A DNA stretch of 64,000 nucleotides, from NCBI GenBank assembly GCA_963971285.1, contig OZ020247.1, forward strand, positions 15,520,614 to 15,584,613, written 5' to 3'. The DNA comes from Astropecten irregularis. Taxonomy: Eukaryota; Echinodermata; Asteroidea; Paxillosida; Astropectinidae. Below, one piece after another: positions 4,285 through 63,735 of this stretch. Under the pieces are notes generated by a model. That model saw only the letters and a program-made list of their open reading frames with translations, did no database searches and had not been told where the DNA came from. Every line of letters starts with the position of its first letter. Position 1 is the first letter of the stretch. Made by a program: the position numbers and the translations under genes.

Positions 4285-4654
4285 AAAAAACAAACAATAT
4301 ATTCATGAAATAACCACAAGGGAAACTGACTGAGTTTTAAGTCATTTAAAAGTGAACAAAGAAAAATTGACTGGAGCGGGATTCAAACCGGCGACCTCCT
4401 GAATACCGTACAGGCGCTCTACCAACTGAGCCATCCAGCCCTACATTGGTGGTGACCCCCAATAGTTCGATCCCTGGGGTGTGGCGGTGTGTACGTGGTT
4501 TCATGGCTTCTGACTGCCAAGCGAACAAAGGTAGTTGACTATTGGGGTCACCACCAACGTAGGGCTGGATGGCTCAGTTGGTAGAGCGCCTGTACGGTAT
4601 TCAGGAGGTCGCCGGTTCCAATCCCGCTCCAGTCAATTTTTCTTTGTTCACTTT
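4285..4654. mobile_element. Composite element with inverted tRNA-like arms, copy 1
   Basis: Left arm 4,350-4,450 and right arm 4,550-4,654 are inverted tRNA-like sequences: GGCTCAGTTGGTAGAGC (D arm, A box), an anticodon-like arm, then GGTTC-AATCCCGCTCCAGTC (T arm, B box, acceptor 3' side). GGCTGGA and TCCAGTC can pair. The spacer ends CCAAGCGAACAAAG. An outer flank (4,285-4,349) also recurs, inverted, beside copies 2 and 3. Confidence 0.65.
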
Positions 4655-35702: not shown

Positions 35703-35821
35703 TAAGTGAACAAAGAAAAATTGACTGGAGCGGGATTCGAACCGGCGACCTCCTGAATACCGTACAGGCGCTCTACCAACTGAGCTATCCAGCTTTACGT
35801 TGGTGGTGTCCCCAATAGTCA
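35703..35821 (-). repeat. Solitary tRNA-like arm
   Basis: One arm of the composite element (minus-strand GGTTCGAATCCCGCTCCAGT) followed by ACGTTGGTGGTGTCCCCAAT, without a partner arm. It is not a credible standalone tRNA gene: the anticodon stem has a mismatch and the sequence occurs as a repeat. Confidence 0.6.
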
Positions 35822-39900: not shown

Positions 39901-42900
39901 TCCTGTTTGTGATGAGTGTTGACGTACTGGAATGACCTACCTAGGAGGGAGTAGCATTTGGCCAGGCAGTCCTGTGTCTCACCCAGGGACTGATGGTGCT
40001 TGTACAGAATCTCTCGTTGGACGTTATAGCACTGATGCAGGATAGCAAGACATTCTACAAGACAAAAACAAAGTTAAAAGGTCAAAGGTCACTATCATAC
40101 ACTCTTGAGTCAAACAGAACTTGACCGGGATAGGTGATGTTTTTTTTTAAAGAAACAAATGACACTCAAAAGTTCAGTAAAGCATTATTTAACAACTTCA
40201 ATTACAAGTTGTCCATGGAATGTTAATGCTTGACTGAATGTAAACATCTGAGTATGTAGCAAGCAGTGTTGTATGACTTGAGGCCGGCCTCGGCTTCGAG
40301 GCCGGTCTCGAGGCTGGAAATTGCTGCCTCGGCCTCAGCCTTGTGGGTCCATGACTTGGCCTTGGCCTTGGCCTCAAAGAATTTTGACTGATGACTTGGC
40401 TCGAGGCCGGGACATTTTTTATTTAAATCCTATGTTTCCAAACATTTTAGGGGGGGACAATTTTACATTTTTCATTAAATAAACACTTAAAGAAAGAAAT
40501 TTAGTGTGTAATTCATCAAATGTCATGACTTGAGAGCATGGTGAACCATGCTAGTGCTCCAGCTCCGGCTCCAGATCAGGCTCTGTCATCCATATGCTGA
40601 AAATATAGGCTGTGGTTTTTCATTGAAAATGAGGTTTTCCTTGGAGCCTGAGTCTGAGCTCGGGTTTCGTAAACCCCCCCTATCATGCCTATGATTTAGA
40701 CGAGAAGCTAATACTTTAAATCCCTGTGGTTTTAATCAGTACTACAGAGTACTCAGCATAAAGAGCAACATGTATTTGATATGTAATGACTGTCACCATG
40801 TTACTTACCCTCAATGTGCTTGCACTCCATAAAATGCCGAGATAATTTGAACAAGTTGCCAGCCCTCTCTTTCTCCTACAAAGAAAAAGAACAAGAAAAG
40901 ACATCAACAAGGAGAAAGAAATCATAACATTCATGAAATGCGCCTACCCTCACCTTAAAGAGTATTAAGTAGGATGTCTCCTGGGATTATGTATCTCCAC
41001 TCCATGGTAAAGATTTGAAAACTGCCCATCCAGAACAAGACGGGATTTGGAATTCTGATGATACCTTTTGCTCCAATCCAAGCTTATAGGCCTTATTCAC
41101 GGTGCATCGATCCATCCTACATTCCAAGCAGTGCAATCAAACCAAGGCTTGGATTCAAAATAGTCTGGTACCTGTTTTCTTTTTAGAATTGGTGCTATGT
41201 TTTCTGAAGGATATACAAGCCCTTATATTTAATACAAGCCGTAATTAGTACTTCTCCCAAAAGAGTTTTTACTTTTCAATTGGCGAAGTGGCTGATGGAT
41301 ACAATAATGCTTTATGGAATAGTGTCAAACACAATGTTCTAAAGAAAACTACCGGTAGTAATTTTTTCCAAAATTCTCCAACATTATTTCAATGTTTTGA
41401 TCACTACATCTTCAAAATGTCTTCCATTTGTGGCGATTCCAAATACTGCATCCCCAAGATGATTGGCCAATCGCAGTTCACAGAATTTGTTGACAAAATG
41501 CGCATTTGGAATGAGTTGACAGATTCCGTACATTGCGATTGGCCAATGCGTTGCAAACTCTTGGAGGCAAACTGTTTGGTATCGCCCAAATTTAAGACCT
41601 CTTATGTACCTAGTGTGACAGGCATTGTCCATCCAACTAATATTCAAATTTGAAATATGCCAATGATAAATATTCAAATTACCTTGGATAGAGCTTTCAG
41701 ACTCTGCGTGTTTCTGCATTGTGGGTTTATGCAGAGGCCCACTGTCCTCTTGTCCAGCCTCGGCATAAGAGGATGACCACATTTTGAACATCTGTTTAAC
41801 ATCAAATTAAAAAAATCATTTATTCAAAGAAAAGTGAACAAAGAAAGAAATTGACTGGAGCAGGATTCGAACCAGCGATCTCCGGAATACCGTACAAGCG
41901 CTCTACCAACTGAACTATCCAGCCCTATATTGGTGGTGTTGAGTGATCCCCCAGGTTGCAGCATTGCTGTGCATATTGAAAAAATGATCCTTGGGATATG
42001 GCGGTATCTGCGTGGTTTCATGGCTTGTGACTGCCAAACAAACAAAGAATAATTGACTATTAGGGACACCACCAACAAAGGGCTGGGTAGCTCAGTTGGT
42101 AAAAGCCCTGGTACAGTATTCCGGAGGTCACCGCTTCGAATCCCGAACCAGTCAATTTGTCTGTTTTCACTTTTCAATGACTTTAAAATCAGTCAGTTTC
42201 CCTTGTGGTTATTTGATGATTATAAAAAAAAAATCATTTAGAATAAATTTTCCAGTGATTCCTTTGTGTAAATCTTTTTTGAACCTGGTGATAACTGTCC
42301 AAATACTTGTTCTATCAATTGAAACTGCACATATCTTCTATATACCTGACAAGTGGCAAAATTTGGGCTTTTATTGTAATTTTATTGTGATTCAAAGGGC
42401 TGTTTTAAATAACATTTTTATTACTAGGTAAATAATATAACCGTTACTCAATTTCATGTTGACTTGTAAATACTAAATAAATAATGAGTATATAGAATTA
42501 CAATATTAATACCTATGAATTGTGTATGAGAGTCTGCCGTCAATCTATACTTACCCATAACAGTTTGACCAATCACCTGTCTGCATTTCATCAGGGGGTG
42601 TTACTGTGCATGCATTACAGGTGCAGGTGAAGAAGTACTGTTCCTGAAGCGCCCTCTGTCTCTCGTCTCTGCTCATGTGCTTAGAGTGAGGTCCTGAAAA
42701 AAAAATCGCAAAAGACCAATTTTAAAGAATTGTTGGTGCTATGATGTAAAATTCTAATTGTTAAGATTTGCAGTTATGCGGCCTGAAGAATCATAACGTG
42801 CAACCACAATATATGTGAAGTGACAAACTGGTGAACCAAAGCACTTCAAGAAATAGGAATGTGACTTATAAATATTGTGTAGCAATTTTATACAATACAG

Positions 42901-48900: not shown

Positions 48901-50015
48901 GAAACATGCTCTACACGTTATTTTCGTTGACTATTTTAAAGGTAGTATCATACTTTGGTAAGAAACTCAAACAGAAATGTTCACAGATTTACCTTTAACT
49001 TACAAGGTATAAAGATTGTGCTGGTAGAAACATTCCAATAAAATCTTTCCGGTGTATTTATCAAGAAATGAGTAAAAGCAACGGCCGAAAATATTTAAAT
49101 AGTTAAGTCGGCACCGTATGAAACTGGGAATTTTACAGATGACTATTTATAGTCAACCAACTATCTTTGCTCAGGGTGCCAGTTAGGTTCAATAACTTAT
49201 TAACTGCCACACCAGTGCTCTACCATCTGAGCTATCCAGCCCTATGATGGGGCCTCCCTATAGTCAACTATCTTTGCTTAGGGTGCCAGTCAGAAGCCAC
49301 ATAACTCATTAACTGCCACACCAGAGGTTGATTTCACCAAACTCATCGTAGCGTACTATCAATCGCACGACTTGGGATGCATTGAAACCCCACGTAGCAT
49401 AAGTAGGGTACGATAGATTATCCTTCGTAACTTGAGTTACGATCAATCGTATGGCTTCATGAAATCGACCCCAGTACTCTTACCATCTGAGCTATCCAAC
49501 CCATGATGTTTTAGTGATCTTAATTCTTTCATAGTTCAAAACGATAAAAAATACTGACCACATAAAGTTCATTCGTGAGACCACACTCCAGCCAATGGTG
49601 TGAGTCCTGAGCTGATTGACAGCACCGGTCACTGCAGTAATGGACATCAGCACAGTCTGGACAACTGCAACAAACGACAGGGGAGGACTTAACATTTCAG
49701 AAAAGTACCCTCTGATCTGTCCTTCATCAGGAGACTGTGTCTATCATGACGGACAGAGTATACTGTTTCGTCAATCGGTTCTCCTCAGAACCACATAATA
49801 CTCACAAAAAGAGGTAAGCATAGGCCTTTTCGGAACGGAGGCTCAGGCTCAGGCTAAGGCTCCATTCTAAGGCTCCATTCTAAAATAACACATATCAAAA
49901 TAGAGGCTTTTGGCTGTGGTTCGGAAGTAGATTATCTGGTTTGAAAAGCGAAACAGAGCTTCAGCTCCAATGAAAAACCACAACCTATATTTTCAGCATA
50001 TGGATGGCAGAACCG

Positions 50016-50057
<42 letters not shown>

Positions 50058-53000
50058 AATTAAGCCATCATTTTGAAAAGGCCCATAGTGTCACCGTACA
50101 CAATCCCTGAATGTGAAATGCCAACTTGCAAATGAAACTGGGTGTCGAAGACTGCACCCAGTCACTCCTCCGAGTAAAACCCTACAAAACATCTTCACGA
50201 TGTTGGGCCAAAAATGCAAACTTACGGGATCGGGTTGAGTGTACTCCTGCAGCAGTAGTGGCAGTGAGTGGCATGGTAGTCTGGTAACAAGACCACTGCA
50301 TATGGAATCTCCTTGATGACAAGTTCACCCGCACTGACTATTGTATTGGCCTATGAGCAAATATAAACAACAAAGAACAATATGAAAGTTAACATGAAAG
50401 ACCTGTAACTTAACTGAATTTTCTGTCAAATCTGTTTTTTTTTTAGTCTTTTATATCAACATTTTTTAATGTTAAACATAATTTTGGGGTTTTAAAATGG
50501 TTTTCAGCAAGAAGAACAAGTTCATACAAATGACTGATTGTTGGTTATAATACACGATTAGTTAAGGTCACAGAACAGCACTCACACTTTGTCTATCCAA
50601 CATGAGCTCAACATGTACATAAAATAACACACCTGCAAAACATTTGAGCTCAATCGGACATCTGAGTCACAAGAAGATAGCAAAAAACCTGACTCAAGTT
50701 TTCTTTTACCCCGAGATCAAAACTGTTCTTGGTCTTTGTTTGACTATGGATAAATAGGCTTTTAATACAGCATTTCAGGCAGAAACATTTTAACGGTATG
50801 TTTCTACTAGCACCATCTTCAAACCCTAAAAGTTATATGTAAATCTGTGAACATTTCTGTTAGGGTATGTTAATACCAATCCTGTCCTGTAATTTTAACT
50901 TTGTGGAGTTTGTGCCACGTATTATCTATAAAACAATACAAGTAATAAACTGCTGCAAACTGCTCATCAGCCCAAATAATGACCTGAAATATATCACATG
51001 CTTATGAGTTCAATAGGAGGGCCTGACGCGTTTCGATCGTAGCAGGATCTTTCTAGCCTTTGAGAAAGATCCTGCTAGGATCGAAATGCGTCAGGCCCTC
51101 CTAACTCTAAGCATCTATAAAAGAAGATTTCTTGTCAACACTGGGCAAGTGAATAAAATGAAAATGCAGAAAGTATTTTTCTGTCTGGAAAAGATTTGCA
51201 TCTGAAGTCTTACCACTAGGAACCTGCCTTTGTCTTGAAAGCAGCTCAGGCTGAGGGATGGAGATGCACTGGCGAGATAGCGAGAGGACTCAGTGAGCTC
51301 ATCTACCTCCATGGGCTTGCTGATGATGGATGGACTGCCCTCAGTACTACAAAGATGAAACAAGGTCTTTTATAAAGTCACAATACTTTGCTGAGAGTTA
51401 GGAGGGCCTAAAGCGTTTCGATCCTAGCAGGATCTTTATCGAAGGCTATATGAAGGACAGGAACAAGTGAATAGAAAAACAAATGGACAGATGAGGGAAT
51501 CAGAACAATAGGAGGGCGGATTGGTCAGACAAAGAGGGTAAGGTAGGCAAGATCAAAGTTGCCAGACTACAAAGGGGTGGGAGTATGGGGCTAGGGGAAT
51601 AGGGATAACAAAGAAGGTAATTAAAGATCAAAATGGAGAAGTGGAGTACAAAAAGCAGGAGGGATTAGAGAGCACCTGTAGATGAATGAAAATGAGACAA
51701 CCAAGCATTAATATTAGCCATTTCCTTCCTGGAGATTAAGTCCATGAGGCTGAAAAGTTTGTAATATTTTGATCCAAACTTTCTCCCTGCTCAACCGGAC
51801 CAAGTCCCTGTGGTGGCCAAGTCATTCAGTGCCCTGCAAGATCATGTCAGAAATTGTGTGGTTAGGGAGATTGAAGTGGAGACCCACTGGGGTGTCAAGT
51901 TTCTGAGTTTTGACTGTGGACCTGTGACCATGAAATCATTTCTTAAGGGTACCGGTATTCTTAGTTTCACCGACACACTGAATGTTGCATACGTACCCTG
52001 CAAGAAATGAGATAGATGACATTAGATGTCATAAGATGACATAATACTTTGATTGGAAATACAATACAAGCAGCTTGGTTGGCGATGAGAAGGGGAGAAT
52101 CATTCCTTCCTTAAAGTACAGGATTGGTAACATACTCAAACAGAAATGTTCACAGATTTACGTATAACTTTCAGGGTATAAAGATGGAGCTGGTAGAAAT
52201 ATACGGTACCATTAAAATATTTCCGCCTGAAATGGTGTATTTATCCAGAAATTAGTCAAACAGAGACACAGAAAACAGTTTTGATCTCGGGGTAAGATCA
52301 AAACCATTCTTTATGTTTTATAAGAAAAATTGAGTCGGGTTTTTCGCTATTTTCTTGTGACTCAGGTGTCGGATTGAGCTCAAATTTTCACAGGTTTATT
52401 ATTTCATGTACATGTTTGATCAGACAAAGTGTGAGTGCTGTTCTTGTCTATAATTGTTAGATATTCCTGTATGCAAGATGTACACACTTTCCAAGTTCGC
52501 GGGTGCATTTGCTGCTCATCACGCTTGAAGAAACACACACAGTCATCACCCATTGTATGATTGTATTTACTGAGCATGCTCATTGTATCATGTTTATTCA
52601 TGAGGTTCATTACTCTGTGAGTAACTGTGTGGTCTGGTTAAGTTAACAAACATTATTCTCACCAAATAGTATCTTTTTATGTTTAATTCAACAGATAAAA
52701 GTCAGGAAAACTATATTACAGCAAAGCTTTTCTATCAACCATCTTGTTCAGTTGGCAAATTGTAAATTATTCAGAGGACTATTGCAATTTGCTTAAAATG
52801 TATTTGTGTAACTGCGGTTGTGTAAGTACTCACCAAACATCATATTGTGTCCTACTTTTTTGTTAAGTATCGCTTCTCGGCCTTTTGGCTAAGATCAAGT
52901 GTAAGAACTGTTCTTTTCAGATTGAAATCTGAAATGCTGCCCATTGGGTGGCTTTTCTTTCAATTTGATTTTTGTAATATTGGCCAGATTTTTAGGAGCT

Positions 53001-56000
53001 AGCTCCTTCCTGGTCATGGGTTGGCCTGGTATTGCACTGCTACCAGGATATGGCCCTCTCCCTTCGGGGAAATAAATAAATCCAAAGATAGACATAAATA
53101 TGATTTAAAATGCTCATGGTAGAAAGAAACATTCTTATGATATGGATTGATTTGCGAAAACACCATATAATAATTGTTCGTACTTTTCAGTTCTGTATCG
53201 TTCGCACTTCTCGCAATCTCAACTTTTCGACTAGTCTGCTCTAGTCCTCATCAGGAGAAGGAGAATTAACATTCTTGTGTTTATTATTTCACGCACATGT
53301 TTGATCAGACAAAAGTGCGAGTGCTGTTCAGTGACCTAATACCATTCATGTATTGTACCTCAATAAATCCTAAACAACCTAGTTTGGGTTTTTTCACATC
53401 TCGTTCTTACCTTGGTTGAGAACAGCTGTGGATGAGTTTCTCCATGTCAGACTTCAATGAATCTGAAAGAAAATGACAAGAAGGTCAAGGATCATGAATA
53501 ATGGGGACAAACAGGGGAATCTGCCAGTGTTGGATTACCGTAATTTTCGGAATATTGGCCGGGGCTTAAACATTGTTTTTCACCCTGAAAAATGTCGGTG
53601 CGGCTTAAAATCCAGGCGGCAACATCTGAAGAATAAAACCAACTTGAGGGTATTCATAGATTATATGTAGTTTAACCAACAAAAGAACCCAATCAACAAT
53701 GTTTTAATGTCGCCGCGGTCGTAATAATCAATGGTATATGTAACAAAACCACTAACAGGAAAAAAACAAACCTACAGCGATCGACAGTTGGTACGTATGC
53801 ACATTAATACTTGTATTCTTTGGTTGGTGTCGTACTGGTACTCGATTACAACTTGAGTACATGCAGAAACTTGGCTCTTACTTGATTAAAAGAAAAGTAC
53901 TCGAGAATAAAATGTACTTAATAGCCAATACTCGATAAAAAGTACTCAAAATAAAATGTACTGGGCCAGTACTCGATAAAAAGTACTCAAAAAATAAAAT
54001 GTACTTGGCCCGTACTCGATTCCAAGTATTTCAATTTTGGGAATACTCGACCATTTAGTGTAAATTAAATTTTCGTTACAATTTCACGGTTGATTATGCT
54101 GCCGTTTCCAATAAATTTTAAAATGGGTGTGTAAAGATCATTGGGAGTTAAGTATCAAGAGGAGTACAGTGTCATTTGCAAGGTTTAAAAAAACATTTGT
54201 TTCTGAGAAAAGTGGTACAGATCATCCAATTATAAACATCTCAGGAGAAACAAATTGCATTTTGTGGCACTGTGCGTTGGTACTCTGTACTCAGACGTAG
54301 TCTCAGACTTTGGTACTTGGACTCGGCCCCGTACTCGTCCTTGAATGCACTCGGCCTTGAATGTACTTGTACCCGATACCCTGGACTTGGACTCGGATCT
54401 GAGGACTCGACTCCAACACTGGAATCTGCCACAAATAGCGCTCCGCACTTGCACTAAAAATAGCACCAGATCTCAGACAAACATTGCAACCATGCAAACG
54501 TGTGTGCGTGTGCGCGTCCATGTACACTACGTGTATGAGACAATGTTTGTCTGACATCCGGGGATTTTGTGAAGTCATTAGTGCGGAGCGCTATTAATAG
54601 CTGAAGCAAAAACAGAACATCTGAAGCAAACTGCTAGATATGAGCAAAGGCAGACAAATGGACACCAACCTTTTCTCTTTGCATCGAGATTCACTGCACC
54701 GTCTAGTGCAAGTGATGCTTCTCTCAAAGCTGAAAGGTATTAAAGAGGGGAGTAGATATTGATGATGAGTTCACTATAATCAAAAGGATGTGAATGGATG
54801 TAAGCTGCTCATCAACTGGGATGGCAGCCATGATGATATCAAATGCACAAAATTAGGAGGCTCTGACATTTAAATGACAGCGGTATGAAAACAAGTGCAG
54901 TCAAAATAGACACATATGGATGACGGAATAACATCAGAACAGATAAAAAGTTTGGAGGTTCGAACCCATGTCAAGCCAGGGGTACAGTTCTTATCATTGG
55001 CACTCATTAGAAGTGGTTTAACTCTCAGATGACCAATCGGTTCTTCTCAGAACCATACACTCTTACAAAAGAGATTAAATGGTGTCACCCACCACAAGCC
55101 TACCTCAATTAGTACTTCCACCATGCATAGCTTTAAGTCTTATTTAAATCTGAATTGATTTACACAAAATGCTCATGCAAATCATATTGTCCTTGGTCAG
55201 TTCATATTCCAAGCCTTGAATTAAACGAAGGCCACGGAGGCCATGGTAAGGTTGGGCGGTTTTGAAAAAAATAAAAACCGACAAAACCGTGAGACCCTGA
55301 CTCGGTTAAACCGTAAAACCGTAAAACCGTAGGCTAGTAAAAAACATAACAAAAATAATAAGCGGGCCTAACGCAAATTCACAGACGCAGGAACGTTACA
55401 ACTTGTCTCCAAAGATCACCATTCAAATTACAAAACGATCAAACGAAAATATGAACGAACAAACGAAATAATGAATAAACTTGATGATGTTGACCCTAAT
55501 TACCGGTATTTTTTCAGCGAAAACGCTCGCTGAATTTGACGTATGCTCGCGATCATTTCGACTTCGAATTCACCCGACCGCATGGTCAGCCATTTTGTAC
55601 ACAAATAGTCTTGATCCAAAACGTTCGATCGCTGTTCGTAGTGCGCCCTCACACGACTGATTTGCACCATCACAATTACCCAATAGGCGTACGTACGTAA
55701 AAAACACATCTAAAGTATTGCAAGGACCAAGACAAGTCTATTAATTCCTGGTATTCCGACCGCAACAAACCATGCATCGTGCACAGCACTCAGTACATAC
55801 ACCGCGTGGTCGCTGTGTAGTCACCGTGCGATCGAGATTGTGTGTGCCGTCGAGTGAGCTCTATTGCCCGTGTACGCTGTGTTTTTTTACGCTACAGTAC
55901 CGCGGTGTTTCGGCGCTTTACGACCGAAAAGGTGGCCTTTTCCTTCGCTTTTATCTGTCTATATCTCGGTGCCTTTTGCAGTAATTACAAAGTTTACAAA

Positions 56001-59000: not shown

Positions 59001-60821
59001 TCCGGGCCATGCGGCCACGTGGTGGGCATGCGGTCTGCATGATGCATCGTACGCGATATGTTTACGTCTTCTTTCGAGCGATCGTCGCGTTCGGAAGGCT
59101 GTCCGAAATATTTGTTTAATCAAGTTTGCGAAAAGTTTGTTTCTGCTTGGCAAAATGGACCCAAAACGACTGAAATTCAAGTATGTATTATACAGTCTAC
59201 ACTTTTGGGGTTGTTTATTTATTGGGCAAATGTCAGTCTACTTTTTAAAATGTTGGTTTCGTATACCGTTTTTGAAATTTTGAAACCGGATGGCAAGATT
59301 TTAAGCGGGAGCCCGTAAATCTGTTTTTGATGCACAGCACTAGATACAGCATTTCACTTTTCAGGCAGAAAAATGTTAACGGTATGTTTCTACCATCACC
59401 ATCTTTATACCATGTAAGTTATAAGTAAATCTGTGAAGATTTCTGTTTCGGTATATCACGGTATGATACCAAAGTATGATACTACCTTTAACCGCAAGTA
59501 GAGGGCGCCCTTTGGAAATGGCATCATATGCATCAGGTTTGTTTACCTGTGTATAACAAGCCAATGCCTCGTTATATTCTTCCTTCTGGAACCAGGCATT
59601 TCCTTTTTGTCTCCAGGATATACTCTGCTCATCACATTTACCATTGCGTGTTCCTGTACAGCATTTCTCTATGAAAGTGAACACATTATCAGCTCTGGAA
59701 GAGAACAAATTACAATTGGGTTAATTCTAGGCAGTGTATATTTTGCCGGCATCAGCAATCTTCCTACAAAAGCTATTTTGCCGTTCCCATTGGCTAAATT
59801 GCAGTATTCGCACATACCTCCGGCAAAATAACCTTTAGAGAAAGAAGGCCGGCACGGCCAACGAGAAGAATGCATGACGGTGCCGGCTAAAAAATACAGG
59901 CGTTACCTCAGTTTAGTACACTCAGGTTAACCCAGTCGTATTTAGGTAAGTTAGTTTACTGTAGAAGCTGGGTACCAGCTACCCTGAGTGTACAAAACTG
60001 AGGTAACCCCAAAATACACTTCCTTCATTCAATATGAGGCTAAGGAAGACTAACCATAGCTTTTCAAAAGTATCTCATCATTACCACTACCAGAGTCCTT
60101 TATGATGTAGTTGTGATGATTGTAACCCTTGGTTTCTCATGGTCCACTCCATGTCACCATGTCAGATCAAAGGTTACGACCATCGCAACAAAGTCCTTGA
60201 TTCATCTTGGCTTTTTTTCAACACATAGTTAGTGACCATCTCTGGTTTTAATTCTAATGAAAAAAGTGTTGGCAGTCTGCAGAACCCTTTCCTTATTTCC
60301 TTTTTCTATACAATCTTTTGAATAATATTTCAACAGGAATGTTTGATGAGTTTTGCACACAAAAAATGGGAGTCAAAGATGATGTTCGGTATAGCCAAGT
60401 CTCTGGACAGTTTGGTATAGGGCCGAGGCCTAGCGGTGTTTGTTGCATTAATTATAATTCCGCTGGCCTGGCACTGAAGTCTGTAAGTTATAACTGTTTA
60501 TGTTAGGACGAAGGCCTACAGTACTACTAGTAAAAGAGAAACTTTAAAATATGTAAAATCCTTAAAATCTCTTTTTAAAAGCATGCAAGCTGGTAAGTTA
60601 GGCCCTATCAATTTTTTTTTTCACTTAATAGATGCAACATGCAGACATAGAAACAAAATAATACAAAACCTCCAAATTGGCAGGCGGCTGCAAAACGTCA
60701 CACGTTCGGCATCTGAATCACAATCTCTGAAAACCTTGAAATCTTGGCCTTTTCCCAAACATTCTTGGTAGGTGACTTTCAGAAGCGATTTCCAGTCAAA
60801 AGAATTGGCCATAATTTTCAT
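36780..60821 (-). CDS. SMYD4: SMYD4-like SET and MYND domain lysine methyltransferase, complete gene, 18 coding exons
   Basis: Joined minus-strand exons give about 969 residues, against 804 in human. Each junction is GT/AG and every phase matches. Order: TPR-like helices (about 70-205), first part of SET (about 262-295), MYND finger (C298, C301/302, C311, C314, C320, C324, H333, C337), SET core (about 481-745) with NHACEPN at 710-716 and ELLHCY at 739-744, post-SET cysteines C768, C770, C773, a further CxxC pair, then a C-terminal helical/TPR-like domain. From family knowledge, SMYD proteins transfer methyl groups from S-adenosylmethionine to lysines; SMYD4 is linked to chromatin repression and heart and muscle development. 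The extra length comes from low-complexity insertions in exons 10 and 11. The start could be either of two in-frame ATGs, residue 1 or 4. The matching region of human SMYD4 was recalled, not searched. Confidence 0.93.
37184..37528. mobile_element. Family D TIR element
   Basis: Starts TAAGGCCTTTTCACACTTTT and ends ACTGTGAAAAGCCCTCTA, reverse orientation relative to 19,951. In SMYD4 intron 17. Confidence 0.7.
37622..37867. mobile_element. Family C TIR element
   Basis: Ends GAGGTTTACGAAACGGAGGC and CGTTTCGTAAACCCCCTA, with GCCGGAGCCGGAGC hexamers inside. It lies about 50 bases downstream (intron 17 side) of SMYD4 exon 17. Confidence 0.75.
37919..38041 (-). CDS. SMYD4: SMYD4 exon 17 (C-terminal TPR-like)
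   Basis: Acceptor CCCTATCTCCAG|GT, donor AATG|GTAAGT. It encodes GDFKQSGKYLRLSVATVEKQ, FGSDSIELANELHKLAQ and VLFNG. This aligns with VEVRHGPSSVEMGHELFKLA in human, including the final FNG. Confidence 0.93.
38112..39395. repeat. 79-bp minisatellite, about 16 units
   Basis: The unit contains GGGTCAGACTGCTTGCTCAA, CTGCCCTGCCACTAGGAG and TTCATGCAGCAGGGAGTCTG. The period measured at 38,362 and 38,441 is 79. Units at 38,320-38,800 alternate between GAGGGTTACTTCATG and GAGAGTTATCTTATG forms, a 158-bp higher-order dimer. Outer units are degenerate. One unit has an extra ACTCAG (39,000) and one a deletion (38,930). In SMYD4 intron 16. Confidence 0.92.
39395..39549. repeat. Foldback (near-perfect 150-bp palindrome)
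   Basis: CCTGGGGCCGATTTCACTAA on the left is mirrored by TTAGTGAAATCGGCCCCAGG on the right. Nearly the whole element pairs with itself around a short loop near 39,470. In SMYD4 intron 16, right after the minisatellite. Confidence 0.75.
39547..39843. mobile_element. TIR element with GGGCCCAATTTCATGGAATC ends
   Basis: Left GGGCCCAATTTCATGGAATC, right GATTCCATGAAATTGGGACC, with several internal GGTTA(A/C)CGGT words. It abuts the preceding foldback. Confidence 0.6.
39941..40054 (-). CDS. SMYD4: SMYD4 exon 16 (C-terminal helices)
   Basis: Phase 1 in and out. Acceptor TTTTGTCTTGTAG|AA, donor CTAG|GTAGGT. It encodes ECLAILHQCYNVQREILYKH followed by ETQDCLAKCYSLLG, equivalent to the VVGEIADGLARACAALGDW segment of human SMYD4. 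Confidence 0.9.
   Translation of the reverse strand, partial: NVLLSCISAITSNERFCTSTISPWVRHRTAWPNATPS
40266..40420. repeat. GGCCT/CTCGG word array, hAT-like fragment
   Basis: Begins CAGTGTTGTATGACTTGAGG and is followed by repeated GGCCTCGAGG and CTTGGCC words. The CAGTG start resembles the hAT-like element at 53,525. The other end was not found. It is in SMYD4 intron 15. Confidence 0.4.
40556..40681. mobile_element. Family C element, half copy
   Basis: Core AATATAGGCTGTGGTTTTTC and right end GGGTTTCGTAAACCCCCC only. In SMYD4 intron 15. Confidence 0.6.
40809..40875 (-). CDS. SMYD4: SMYD4 exon 15 (C-terminal helices)
   Basis: 67 bases. Acceptor CTTTTTCTTTGTAG|GAG, donor GAGG|GTAAGT. It encodes EKERAGNLFKLSRHFMECKH, an amphipathic helix region similar in position to VAQKLLRDGELERAV in human. 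Confidence 0.87.
41683..41791 (-). CDS. SMYD4: SMYD4 exon 14 (zinc-ribbon-like CxxC pair)
   Basis: Acceptor GTTAAACAG|A (phase 2), donor TCCAAG|GTAATT (phase 0). It encodes CSKCGHPLMPRL...VGLCINPQCRN, two cysteine pairs corresponding to CCNSCGAPMQ...CGSRSC in vertebrate SMYD4. The correct frame is not the longest open one here; phase decides it. Confidence 0.9.
41831..42225. mobile_element. Composite element with inverted tRNA-like arms, copy 2
   Basis: Arms at 41,831-41,930 and 42,060-42,174. The same spacer includes ATCCTTGGGATATGGCGGTA and GTGGTTTCATGGCTTGTGAC. The right flank TCAGTTTCCCTTGTGGTTAT matches the inverted left flank of copy 1. In SMYD4 intron 13, within about 40 bases of exon 14. 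Confidence 0.65.
42555..42693 (-). CDS. SMYD4: SMYD4 exon 13 (post-SET)
   Basis: Acceptor with a T-rich tract ending TTTTCAG|GA; donor TATGG|GTAAGT. It encodes GPHSKHMSRDERQRAL, then QYFFTCTCNACT, the post-SET CxCxxC that helps build the active site. This aligns with QYFFDCACPACQ in human. Confidence 0.93.
43065..43082. repeat. Short AAT trinucleotide run
   Basis: Six AAT units beside SMYD4 exon 12-13 intronic sequence. Confidence 0.8.
43501..43574 (-). CDS. SMYD4: SMYD4 exon 12 (SET C-part)
   Basis: Acceptor TATTCATTTAG|T (phase 2), donor TATG|GTAATG (phase 1). It encodes FHGAVLMIRATRDIQVGQEL followed by LHCYG. Human has IRASQRIRKGQEILHCYG. The tyrosine of LHCYG is the conserved catalytic-site Tyr of SMYD SET domains. 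Confidence 0.93.
43854..44195 (-). mobile_element. Family A TIR element, full copy
   Basis: TTAAAGGTAGTATCATACTT ... CCAAAGTATGATACTACC plus TTTAA. In SMYD4 intron 11, about 280 bases from exon 12. Confidence 0.78.
44241..44460. mobile_element. AAAAGGCCTTTTCACA element with a different core
   Basis: Ends AAAAGGCCTTTTCACATGAT and GTTGTGTGAAAAGGCCTTTA resemble family D. The core (CTCTCAACCATTGAGAAATC and its inverse) is unrelated. In SMYD4 intron 11. Confidence 0.65.
44775..45138 (+). mobile_element. Family A TIR element, full copy
   Basis: TTAAAGGTAGTATCATACTT ... CCAAAGTATGATACTACC plus TTTAA. In SMYD4 intron 11, opposite orientation to the copy at 43,854. Confidence 0.78.
46451..46601. repeat. 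Foldback MITE (CACAATAGTGCGCCA ends)
   Basis: CACAATAGTGCGCCATCCAT and ATGGTGGCGCACTATTGTG are inverted over about 50 bases, including GAGTTTGCAAC/GTTGCAAACTC. A shorter relative lies at 41,452-41,575. Confidence 0.65.
46777..46975. mobile_element. Family C element, right end degenerate
   Basis: Left end GGGGGTTTACGAAACGGAGG and the conserved core AATATAGGTTGTGGTTTTTC; the right end stops at TTTACGAAATGGAGCC. It ends about 35 bases from SMYD4 exon 11. Confidence 0.7.
47012..47631 (-). CDS. SMYD4: SMYD4 exon 11 (SET core with NHxCxPN)
   Basis: The largest exon, 206 codons plus two bases. Acceptor ACTTTCCTGCAG|ACT, donor GCAAG|GTGAGG. Conserved parts: LRHLQQLKCNSHAVTTIQ, and TKQVRLATAVYSTASLLNHA, which leads into the cofactor-binding NHACEPN. 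Between them are two Ser/Thr-rich insertions. The first holds a dense cysteine patch at residues 589-598 (C589, C591, C594, C596, C598), absent from the human sequence as I recall it. Confidence 0.93.
47758..47987. mobile_element. Family C TIR element
   Basis: Ends AGGGCGTTTACGAAACGGAG and CTCCATTTTGTAAATGCCCA. It directly abuts another TIR element on its right. Confidence 0.75.
47987..48221. mobile_element. TIR element with TAGACCCTATTCATGG ends
   Basis: Left TAGACCCTATTCATGGCGTA, right reverse complement CCGTGAATAGGGCCTA; 35-40 bases of inverted repeat including ATCTTGTCACCTTCCTT. A related, less complete copy lies at 40,960-41,215. In SMYD4 intron 10. Confidence 0.7.
48294..48797 (-). CDS. 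SMYD4: SMYD4 exon 10 (SET insertion and SET-I start)
   Basis: 168 codons, phase 0 at both ends. Acceptor ATTTCTATTCAG|ATC, donor ACAATG|GTAGGT. It starts IGTQALLSLRLLLHV and ends GIYRNDYQAVYHLMTHTENH, the counterpart of NNYNAVFNLLPHTENH in human. The ~100 residues between are low-complexity, rich in Glu, Ser, Thr, His and Ala, and probably a disordered loop longer than in vertebrates. Confidence 0.93.
48936..49160 (+). mobile_element. Family A element, truncated
   Basis: Left end TTAAAGGTAGTATCATACTT and first subterminal blocks are present; the right TIR is missing and the interior is shortened. In SMYD4 intron 9. Confidence 0.65.
49320..49473. repeat. Foldback-like repeat ending GAAATCGACCCCAG
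   Basis: Left CCAGAGGTTGATTTCACC and right GAAATCGACCCCAG are inverted. The interior has GATCAATCGTA-type words in both orientations. In SMYD4 intron 9. Confidence 0.5.
49559..49664 (-). CDS. SMYD4: SMYD4 exon 9 (rest of MYND finger)
   Basis: Acceptor TCGTTTGTTGCAG|T (phase 2), donor TATGTG|GTCAGT (phase 0). It encodes CPDCADVHYCSDRC followed by HHWLEC. This completes the MYND pattern CxxC...CxxC...YCSxxC...H-x3-C with all expected ligands present. Confidence 0.93.
49822..50087. mobile_element. Family C TIR element
   Basis: Ends ATAGGCCTTTTCGGAACGGA and TTTTGAAAAGGCCCAT. The GAGCCT hexamer has expanded to about seven units at 50,015-50,055. In SMYD4 intron 8. Confidence 0.72.
50226..50350 (-). 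CDS. SMYD4: SMYD4 exon 8 (SET N-part, start of MYND)
   Basis: Acceptor TTGCTCATAG|GCC (phase 0), donor ATCCC|GTAAGT (phase 2). It encodes SAGELVIKEIPYAVVLLP, the conserved (P/A)GE(L/V)x(V/I) segment of SMYD SET domains, then THCHYCCRSTLNPIP, which carries the first zinc ligands of MYND. Confidence 0.93.
50546..50900 (-). mobile_element. Family B element, diverged copy
   Basis: Recognisable by AATCGGACATCTGAGTCACA, TACCCCGAGATCAAAACTGT and CCAATCCTGTCCTGTA. In SMYD4 intron 7. Confidence 0.6.
51004..51112. repeat. Foldback containing CGATCCTAGCAGGATC-like core
   Basis: GAGGGCCTGACGCGTTTCGA and TCGAAATGCGTCAGGCCCTC are near-perfect inverted arms, with TAGCAGGATCTTTCT inside. In SMYD4 intron 7, about 100 bases from exon 7. 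Confidence 0.6.
51214..51346 (-). CDS. SMYD4: SMYD4 exon 7 (linker and first SET strand)
   Basis: Acceptor CATCTTTGTAG|T enters at phase 2; donor CTAGTG|GTAAGA leaves at phase 0. A Ser-rich stretch ends in SCFQDKGRFLV. This is equivalent to the vertebrate segment DPLKGRCLVAT, which opens the SET domain. Confidence 0.9.
52111..53362 (+). mobile_element. Family B element interrupted by the U2-containing segment
   Basis: Left part 52,111-52,443 starts TTAAAGTACAGGATTGGTAA. The right part resumes at 53,280 and runs to the ATGTATTGTACCT end. About 50 bases (52,395-52,443 and 53,280-53,329) are present on both sides of the inserted segment, as a long direct repeat. Confidence 0.65.
52869..53056 (+). 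ncRNA. U2 snRNA-like sequence, diverged variant or pseudogene
   Basis: The first 35 bases from ATCGCTTCTCGGCCTTTTGG are identical to canonical U2. After GTGTA the branch-site recognition bases differ (GTAAGAAC in place of GTAGTATC). Downstream sequence diverges but the folds persist. Stem IIa is TTTCAG/CTGAAA where U2 has TATCAG/CTGATA, a covarying pair change. IIb is GCTGCCC/GGGTGGC. An Sm-like site GATTTTTG follows. Stem III contains AGGAGC/GCTCCT. Stem IV is CCTGGTA/TACCAGG around TTGCACTGC. AAAGATAGA at 53,084-53,092 fits the AAARNNAGA half of an snRNA 3' box. It lies antisense in SMYD4 intron 6. It may be a functional variant, a pseudogene, or a U2-derived repeat. Confidence 0.75.
53411..53462 (-). 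CDS. SMYD4: SMYD4 exon 6 (linker)
   Basis: A 52-base exon, phase 1 in and phase 2 out. Acceptor TTTTCTTTCAG|AT, donor CCAAG|GTAAGA, both strong. It encodes DSLKSDMEKLIHSCSQP, a charged helical linker between the TPR part and SET. Confidence 0.8.
53525..54421. mobile_element. hAT-like non-autonomous element 2 (ACTCGA words)
   Basis: Perfect 8-bp duplication GAATCTGC at 53,517-53,524 and 54,422-54,429. Termini CAGTGTTGGA and TCCAACACTG; CAGTG is the canonical hAT end. The interior holds many copies of the words GTACTCGA and ACTCGGA (53,830-54,060, 54,280-54,415). No coding frame recognised. It lies in SMYD4 intron 5, starting about 60 bases from exon 6. Confidence 0.85.
54670..54729 (-). CDS. 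SMYD4: SMYD4 exon 5 (linker)
   Basis: A 60-base exon, phase 1 in and out. Acceptor ATACCTTTCAG|CT, donor AAAAG|GTTGGT. It encodes ALREASLALDGAVNLDAKRK. The donor is mediocre, but the phases require it. There is little similarity by which to judge it other than position and frame. Confidence 0.75.
55247..56139. mobile_element. hAT-like non-autonomous element 3 (AAAACCG words)
   Basis: Perfect 8-bp duplication GGCCATGG at 55,239-55,246 and 56,140-56,147. Left end TAAGGTTGGGCGGTTT; right end reverse-complements to TAGGCTTGGGCGGTTT. Both subterminal regions carry repeats of AAAACCGT. The middle (55,600-55,880) is CpG-rich. A matching terminal fragment, TAGGCTTGGGCGGTTTACCG, occurs at about 27,917. 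It is in SMYD4 intron 4. Confidence 0.85.
56419..56542 (-). CDS. SMYD4: SMYD4 exon 4 (TPR)
   Basis: Acceptor CTCTGTAG|CTA (phase 0), donor GACG|GTAAGT (phase 1). It encodes VHECDLAIGCGYP, then YKVLHRKGQCLVKMGQLD, continuing the TPR array just as human SMYD4 does (DINRAQTHGYPE...RKAECLVALG). Confidence 0.92.
56714..56874. repeat. Short TIR element (TATGGCAAGCCAAATG)
   Basis: Ends TATGGCAAGCCAAATG and CATTTGGCTTGCCATA; the interior is a series of GTTTATC/GATAAA words. In SMYD4 intron 3. Confidence 0.6.
57443..57577 (-). CDS. SMYD4: SMYD4 exon 3 (TPR)
   Basis: Acceptor with pyrimidine tract TTCTTCTCTTTATT and ...AAATAG|AGC; donor TATGAG|GTAACT. It is 45 codons, phase 0 at both ends. It contains ALAIANRSAALHHLGHYE, matching the ANRSAALFHLGQYE motif of TPR helix pairs in SMYD4. 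Confidence 0.92.
57679..58034 (+). mobile_element. Family A TIR element, full copy
   Basis: TTAAAGGTAGTATCATACTT ... CCAAAGTATCATATTACC plus TTTAA, in SMYD4 intron 2, about 100 bases upstream of exon 3. Confidence 0.78.
58288..59491 (-). mobile_element. Family A TIR element interrupted by a hAT-like insertion
   Basis: Left part 58,288-58,470 starts TTAAAGGTAATATCATACTT. Right part 59,343-59,491 ends GTATGATACTACCTTTAA. The two together make a normal-length family A copy once the 872-bp element and one GATACAGC are removed. In SMYD4 intron 2. Confidence 0.8.
58471..59342. mobile_element. hAT-like non-autonomous element 4, nested in a family A repeat
   Basis: Perfect 8-bp duplication GATACAGC at 58,463-58,470 and 59,343-59,350. 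Termini TAGTGCTGTGCAT and ATGCACAGCACTA. It splits a family A element (58,288-59,491) whose two halves continue across the duplication, so it is the younger insertion. The CpG-rich core (58,800-59,100) has several overlapping frames, none recognised. Confidence 0.88.
59547..59694 (-). CDS. SMYD4: SMYD4 exon 2 (first TPR helices)
   Basis: The acceptor TTGTTCTCTTCCAG|A enters at phase 2 and the donor ACACAG|GTAAAC leaves at phase 0. It encodes ADNVFTFIEKCC... followed by WRQKGNAWFQKEEYNEAL, the classic start of a TPR unit (small residue, G-N, F, Y, A-L). This is the region equivalent to YREEGNKKFQ in human SMYD4. Confidence 0.9.
60670..60821 (-). CDS. SMYD4: SMYD4 exon 1 (N-terminus)
   Basis: Begins MKIMANSFDWKSLL and ends ...SRLPIW plus two bases of an Arg codon. 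The first ATG (60,821-60,819) has G at -3. The second in-frame ATG (60,812-60,810, MANSFDW) has A at -3 and G at +4, the better context. FDWKSLL resembles the DEWKSYLL start of the human protein. The donor AG|GTTTTG is weak, but it is the one that gives phase 2, as exon 2 needs. The frame stays open upstream for about 150 bases without another ATG. Confidence 0.8.
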
Positions 60822-63335: not shown

Positions 63336-63735
63336 ATGTGAACAAAGAAAAAAATGACTGGAGCGGGATTTGAACCTGCAACCTCCGGAATACAGTGCTG
63401 GGGCTCTACCAACTAAGCATCCTGTTTGAGATATCCCCCATGGATATATAAGGTCTCAGGTTGCAGCACTGCTAATGTTGCATGCATCTTCAATGATCCT
63501 TGGGATATAGCAGTATGTGAGTGGTTTCATGGCTTCTGAATGCCAAACGAACAAAGAAAATTGACTATTAGGGACACCGCCGACATTGGACAGGATAGCT
63601 CAGATGGCAAGAGTGCTGGTACAGACTGGGTATTCTGGGGGTAGCAGGTTCGAATCCCGCTCTAATTAAGTTTTCTTAATTCACCTTTCTATGACTTAAA
63701 ATTAATCCAGTCAGTTTCCCATTTGATGATTGAAT
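63336..63735. mobile_element. Composite element with inverted tRNA-like arms, copy 3
   Basis: Arms at 63,336-63,430 and 63,575-63,690, same spacer (ATCCTTGGGATATAGCAGTA), and the same right flank (CCAGTCAGTTTCCCATTTGA). More diverged arms. A further degenerate tRNA-like arm lies at about 63,160-63,240. Confidence 0.6.

Follow-up and report, generated by a model that had tools for sequence, protein, structure and literature searches.

A dispersed family of U2 snRNA-like genes with altered branch-recognition sequences in the starfish Astropecten irregularis

We describe a U2 small nuclear RNA (snRNA) gene of the starfish Astropecten irregularis in which the branch-recognition sequence (BRS), one of the least variable segments of any RNA, has been replaced. 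The gene lies in a 64,000-nucleotide stretch of DNA (contig OZ020247.1, positions 15,520,614 to 15,584,613; hereafter the window) and is one of six paralogues, referred to here as class C, that have the anatomy of snRNA genes, carry signs of constraint at the level of the class and have changed the BRS in three different ways within an otherwise near-constant 5' part. Judging from the sequences, we put the chances at about even that the window gene and its paralogues are retained variant U2 genes with a probable shift in branch preference.

Results

The RF00004 covariance model for U2 matches the forward strand of the window at 52869-53063 with 155.5 bits (E 3e-32; gathering score 46) and over its whole length (positions 1-192), which bears out an initial annotation, made from the letters of the window alone, of a full-length U2 snRNA-like gene at this locus. 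That annotation also held that stems IIa, IIb, III and IV can all form. Indeed, the Rfam structure has 45 pairs, of which 43 are standard in this gene, with both exceptions in inner stem III, and the fold of the gene is matched by 1 of 200 shuffled sequences (z -3.41). The Sm-like site that it named is present, and the 3' box, of which it had seen a possible half, is complete as AAAGATAGA, in agreement with AAARNNAGA, which we take to be the core of this element; ordinary copies have a 3' box too. Stem IIa fared differently. Its TTTCAG/CTGAAA pairing had been read as a compensatory change, but each of the 17 U2 copies aligned, those of the ordinary arrays among them, has the same stem; on this comparison it is the species' normal stem, compensatory solely with respect to the U2 of other species, and we rejected it as evidence for a variant. 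In stem IIb, a U-A pair changed to C-G (columns 74/80 of alignment A1) separates all six class C genes from the 11 ordinary aligned copies.

At the 5' end of the window gene the U2 sequence is kept through GTGTA, with nucleotide (nt) 30 alone differing from the species' arrays, and AGAAC then stands where the arrays have GTATC. The initial annotation had described 35 identical 5' bases followed by altered branch-site bases, and the alteration holds, after a 5' part that is intact. The branch-recognition stretch reads GTGTAAGAACTG in the window gene versus GTGTAGTATCTG in ordinary U2 of the same genome, the altered bases being nt 36, 37 and 39. GTAAGA occupies 52901-52906, and GUAGUA, a defining feature of U2, is absent there.

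A genome search for further copies, which had been proposed as a check, was run over 475.7 Mb in 168 contigs. RF00004 scored at least 46 places, at least 43 of them above cut-off with fragments counted, and the full U2 copies fall into three classes. Class A comprises an array on contig C16 and three further copies, two of them on C11 and the third on C28; class B is an array on C29. Both have the ordinary GUAGUA. Class C consists of six full or nearly full, dispersed genes: the window gene (C10:15573482), a second gene on the same contig (C10:16126101; C10b), C22:14895441, and three on C27 (C27:14151058, C27:14144901 and C27:12461881; handles C27a, C27b and C27c). In a tree of 17 chosen U2 copies and the Rfam consensus, class C forms a single clade (99/100) that groups with class B (90/96). 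As a separate observation, the stem I loop of the class B copies of the C29 array (L019-L022) reads TGAT rather than TTTT (6/6 copies aligned).

An exact pattern over the BRS region, run genome-wide, found 33 places, of which 26 are canonical, two each carry GTGTAAGAAC, GTGTAATTC and GTTGATAGAAC, and one, a fragment, carries GTTGAAGAAC. The BRS is altered in all six class C genes and in no other U2 gene matched by the pattern. Besides the type seen in the window gene there are two more, one with a net insertion and one with a net deletion; in the registers we chose, the class C sequences read GUAAGA, GUAAUU or AUAGAA versus GUAGUA in ordinary U2, and the U and A that pair beside the branch adenosine are kept in 6/6 genes. 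The branch-loop hairpin is calculated at -2.8 and -3.4 kcal/mol for two of the types and at -0.8 for the canonical sequence. One exact pattern of the window gene's type had no match in viral contigs and none in prokaryote contigs.

An alignment of class C covering 420 bp upstream, the RNA and 250 bp downstream provides a picture of where these genes vary. Within the RNA the mean pairwise distance is 0.000 at nt 40-66, 0.059 at nt 1-32 and 0.094 at nt 67-195; outside it, the 3' box stretch has 0.169, the upstream region 0.196-0.245, the spacer (-19 to -1) 0.386 and the downstream region 0.556, which is near-random past the 3' box. BLASTN homology between members starts at about -280 to -460 (-350 to -416 for the window gene against the five others) and mostly stops at +223 to +236, the exceptions being the window gene against the two C27 tandem copies (+270), C27b against C22 (+255) and the tandem pair. 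Between the window gene and C10b, which have identical BRS, 7 of 195 positions in the transcript and 81 of 307 upstream are different, and C22 and C27c, again with identical BRS, differ at 65 of 318 upstream positions; two BRS types are thus unchanged between sister genes with 20-26% upstream difference. Variable columns make up 7 of 90 stem positions versus 24 of 106 unpaired ones (Fisher p 0.0055; C27b excluded). These comparisons of sequence support selective constraint on class C as a whole. Within the class, columns 30, 108, 164 and 183 are private to the window gene, the bases at 108 and 164 matching an ordinary class, and a change at column 88 occurs in the window gene and C27b only; all five of these columns are unpaired.

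The six genes have about 300-450 bp of upstream sequence in common. Within it, a word resembling the proximal sequence element (PSE) was sought at fixed position as TAACYGYGRYT with at most one mismatch, the word having been written after inspection of these same promoters. Five class C genes have it 59-61 nt ahead of the RNA start, and six class B copies, of which five are full and the sixth is broken, have it at 59 nt; the full class B copy at C29:11276299 is not among the matches. Ahead of the one gene found for U12, an unrelated RNA, it stands at 62 nt, and in C27b the word is present at a distance shortened to 49. Elsewhere in the 488,102 bases scanned on both strands there are 23 more matches, some of them the palindromic reverse of the same word. 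A look for a PSE about 55 bases upstream, shared with the canonical U2 genes, had been proposed as a check; the PSE-like word is common to class C and class B, and class A differs upstream. There, the array genes (C16, L009-L016) were seen to have TATATATCCCC, unlike the PSE-like word of class B, class C and U12.

Two kinds of copying event bear on the history of the family. At C22:243123-243308 (L031) lies a retrocopy, a fragment of about 49 nt that begins at U2 +1, is shortened on its 3' side and lies between the two copies of an 11-bp direct repeat, TTAGTGTGTTG, that constitutes a target duplication. Its BRS, GTTGAAGAAC, is class C-like and of a fourth type, identical to none of the six genes. 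A start at +1, 3' shortening and a short target duplication are the form of an RNA-derived copy, and tailless retropseudogenes have reportedly been the subject of a published study. The form of the fragment implies that the germ line at one time produced a class C-like RNA; current expression of the window gene does not follow from it. The window gene itself sits in a segment (about 52444-53278) that interrupts a common interspersed repeat, other copies of which run on across the site, and is flanked by two repeat copies that are 92% identical over 51 columns, with 3 substitutions and 1 gap. The interrupted repeat and the duplication of about 51 bp together indicate that this gene arrived as a promoter-bearing DNA segment. 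A mobile unit including the neighbouring repeat was considered and rejected, since that repeat matches many places in the 64-kb window and is the landing site. Around the other five class C genes (about 1.4-2.3 kb on each side, with a 1.5-kb limit), the sole flanking direct repeat was found at C27a; it is 181 bp long (-1449..-1269 and +1025..+1205) and part of the tandem duplication there.

The ordinary U2 arrays (C16:8377443-8453410 and C29:11245472-11289833; L009-L022) contain many copies interrupted at about nt 38/39, a point that falls inside the BRS. Foreign sequence reaches up to about nt 37-39 in 14 of the 37 array BRS sites found, and the ends of this foreign sequence are of four or more different kinds. 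An open reading frame (ORF) of 1192 amino acids in the C29 array (L018:3762-7337, minus strand) has a reverse transcriptase match (1.2e-35) together with C2H2 and zf-RVT matches under the Pfam cut-offs. In a published account, the U2 flank of the retroelements Utopia and Keno begins at nt 39, and Utopia occurs in organisms that include sea urchins and starfish (PMC4640811). The array interruptions lie at the U2 nucleotide given there for these elements. Utopia is marked by zinc fingers, a reverse transcriptase, a C-terminal zinc finger, a restriction-like endonuclease and a 3' flank of U2 from nt 39; the layout of the 1192-residue frame, a candidate for such an element, is like that given for Utopia, with the reverse transcriptase and the site in agreement and the zinc-finger matches below cut-off (PMC4640811). 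The class C genes, in contrast, contain no element and lack the target sequence. Among dispersed copies, three ordinary ones (two on C11, one on C28) have kept the site and are intact. Since the class C BRS changes straddle the interruption point, escape from insertion, or a scar left by repair, is a serious rival to a change of specificity or a possible cause of it. By eye, frames in the C29 array also resemble those of APE-type elements.

Table 1. Features of the variant U2 gene and its surroundings, in window coordinates
Feature	Coordinates	Strand	Basis
Left direct-repeat copy, about 51 bp, apparent target-site duplication in common interspersed repeat	52394..52443	+	92% with 53279-53329
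Distal upstream region, putative distal promoter	52453..52808	+	BLASTN homology common to six class C genes
PSE-like element TAACTGCGGTTGTGTAAGTAC, 60 nt before RNA start	52809..52829	+	Word scan
Block AAACATCATATTGTG, conserved, downstream of PSE and ahead of RNA start; C27c partly deviates	52835..52849	+	Six-gene alignment
Variant U2 snRNA body	52869..53063	+	RF00004, 155.5 bits, full model
Altered BRS GTAAGAAC (U2 nt 33-40; ordinary arrays GTAGTATC)	52901..52908	+	Sequence, alignment, genome-wide pattern
Stem-loop IIa (TTTCAG/CTGAAA)	52915..52934	+	Standard for species; aligned U2 copies
Stem-loop IIb (GCTGCCCATTGGGTGGC)	52936..52952	+	Double-sided change versus ordinary copies
Sm-site-like GATTTTTG	52967..52974	+	Identical in 16/17 aligned copies; C27c ends in A
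Stem-loop III	52982..53015	+	RF00004 match, pair count, fold
Stem-loop IV	53018..53056	+	RF00004 match, pair count, fold
3' box AAAGATAGA	53084..53092	+	Sequence; class C alignment
Right direct-repeat copy	53279..53329	+	Comparison with 52394..52443

Elsewhere in the window, the histone 3' stem-loop is matched at two places just above the gathering score (49772-49818 and 55034-55078), and the window ORF list holds no frame of at least 90 amino acids that overlaps or adjoins them. Five similar tRNA-like matches (4368-4440, 4563-4635, 35722-35794, 41852-41924 and 63355-63426) are perhaps a tRNA-derived short interspersed element. When three window ORFs were compared with Pfam, two had no family and the third, at 59376-59708 on the minus strand, had a TPR match (E 7e-5) under the cut-off; it may be an exon belonging to an opposite-strand gene. 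One window ORF compared with the PDB gave nothing under E 0.65.

Discussion

How could class C RNAs function? We envision a scenario, drawn from established snRNA biology, in which RNA polymerase II would transcribe these genes from the PSE, the RNA would be processed at the 3' box and assembled with Sm proteins, and its unchanged 5' end would pair with U6. By base pairing only, the preferred branch sites would be UCUUAAC for the window gene and its sister and AAUUAAC and UUCUAAU for the other two types, versus the ordinary UACUAAC. As the U and A beside the branch adenosine are kept in the chosen registers, degenerate branch sites could still be usable by class C, and its members could serve as minor isoforms with a preference for some introns.

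Several of our observations weigh against this model. No part of the RNA varies more between class C types than the BRS does (mean distance 0.343). The pairing of each class C BRS at 6/6 positions with its own predicted site, and at 4/6 with UACUAAC, is in its first half true by construction, because each site was predicted from the BRS itself; the third type pairs solely in a shifted register, and the branch-loop hairpin of the C27 type is weaker than the canonical one (-0.1 versus -0.8 kcal/mol). C27a and C27b, which differ at 21 of 306 upstream positions, are too recent to show retention of their BRS, and about nt 1-8 of U2 are missing from C27b. The 3 substitutions in the 50-bp flanking duplication lead to a neutral expectation of about 6 changes per 195 nt on the window branch, near the 4-5 that it has, so that constraint on this single copy is unsupported. 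Covariation was no better than in shuffles by two of five measures (448/500 and 500/500) in an alignment that misaligned outer stem III between class C and ordinary copies. The PSE-like word owes its wording to the promoters themselves, and the likeness of class C promoters to that of U12 emerges only in the position-tied scan, as with free position there was no excess (for the rows compared, 20-57 of 60 shuffles did equally well). Finally, all comparisons were made within this one genome.

The arrays hint at another possible origin for the altered bases. If Utopia- or Keno-like elements cut between nt 38 and 39, the class C genes could be repair scars or the product of selected loss of the site, making U2 proof against insertion; the BRS change would then be incidental, and a role in splicing may have been either retained or lost. 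We regard this explanation as unlikely, though deserving of attention: more than a third of the array sites found carry foreign sequence (14/37), a frame with reverse transcriptase lies in the C29 array, and the site has been lost in 6/6 class C genes in three ways that include a net insertion and a net deletion. However, 0/6 against 14/37 is not a significant difference (p 0.078) and the array copies are not independent; the intact dispersed ordinary copies retain the site, so dispersal alone may protect; and the interruptions are foreign sequence with a putative element identity at each, the base requirements of the nuclease being likewise putative. It is also conceivable, if rather improbable, that class C encodes a decoy or other non-splicing U2-like RNA, for which the ribonucleoprotein is kept while a BRS without a branch role drifts. 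Three BRS types in six genes next to an invariant nt 40-66, with biogenesis signals kept, are what such drift could produce, yet two of the three types are unchanged between sisters whose upstream regions have diverged by a fifth or more, and the U and A beside the branch position are kept throughout in the chosen registers.

That class C consists of dying duplicates, copied at the DNA level with non-functional promoters and kept alike in the body by gene conversion, we consider very improbable; the lost 5' end of C27b, the arrival of the window copy in an insert flanked by the duplication of about 51 bp (92% identical) and the near-neutral number of changes in that copy fit such a history, whereas the PSE-like word, the 3' box and the stems are conserved, changes avoid stems (p 0.0055), and conversion by ordinary U2 would be expected to restore the BRS. 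A plain retropseudogene family is unlikely because the genes have in common an upstream region with a PSE-like word, stems, Sm site and 3' box, because BRS types have been kept, and because of the retrocopy; a retropseudogene or U2-headed repeat was rejected for a clade of six members with conserved upstream sequence. Nor does the window gene resemble a U2 retropseudogene in its surroundings, as upstream sequence is conserved, stems are favoured and the duplication encloses a promoter-bearing segment. The initial annotation had left a choice between a variant U2 and a U2-derived repeat: a variant gene family is the part that stands, the repeat being disfavoured by the stem bias, the PSE-like word and the six members, and the marks of a retropseudogene family that it listed (many copies, random changes, absence of a PSE) were not what we found.

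Known systems provide partial parallels to retained variant U2 genes. The class C genes are like ordinary U2 (RF00004, in tandem arrays) in their full-length match, stems I-IV, Sm site, 3' box and 5' part, and unlike it in their replaced BRS, dispersed positions and own conserved upstream region. In fly, sea urchin and silk moth, U2 isoforms belonging to several sequence classes per genome are reported as developmentally regulated, and a legend mentions four variable positions in fly U2 with their locations unstated; the presence of several U2 classes in one genome is the point of likeness to class C (PMC4291461). The planarian U1 variants U1C1 and U1C2 have an altered 5' splice-site motif and measured expression, and resemble class C in being paralogues changed in intron-recognition bases; there, however, the RNA is U1 and the change one base, whereas class C concerns genes for U2, with several bases changed and indels (PMC6312358). 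In the titles and abstract openings of a searched set of papers on U2 variants and branch recognition, with little subscription content, we found no U2 family with a replaced BRS. The BRS of U12 in this genome, GUAAGG, is alike at 5/6 bases to the GUAAGA of the window gene, the remainder of whose RNA matches U2; the likeness may be chance, since just two of the five common bases differ from ordinary U2. RF00007, the U12 model, had no match in the window and scored one place in the genome (C10:17349432). With two changed bases alike, an RNA that is otherwise U2 and a separate U12 gene, a U12-like function is not favoured.

If class C genes are variant U2 genes, a retained, promoter-bearing family would suggest that several U2 specificities exist side by side in one organism, as has already been proposed for variant U1. 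The overlap between the BRS and the retroelement site offers a testable cause. We find it distinctly improbable, but can conceive, that a retrotransposon cutting the BRS loop of U2 drove an escape family whose survivors are working ribonucleoproteins with new branch preferences; if so, a genomic parasite would have reshaped the recognition code of the spliceosome.

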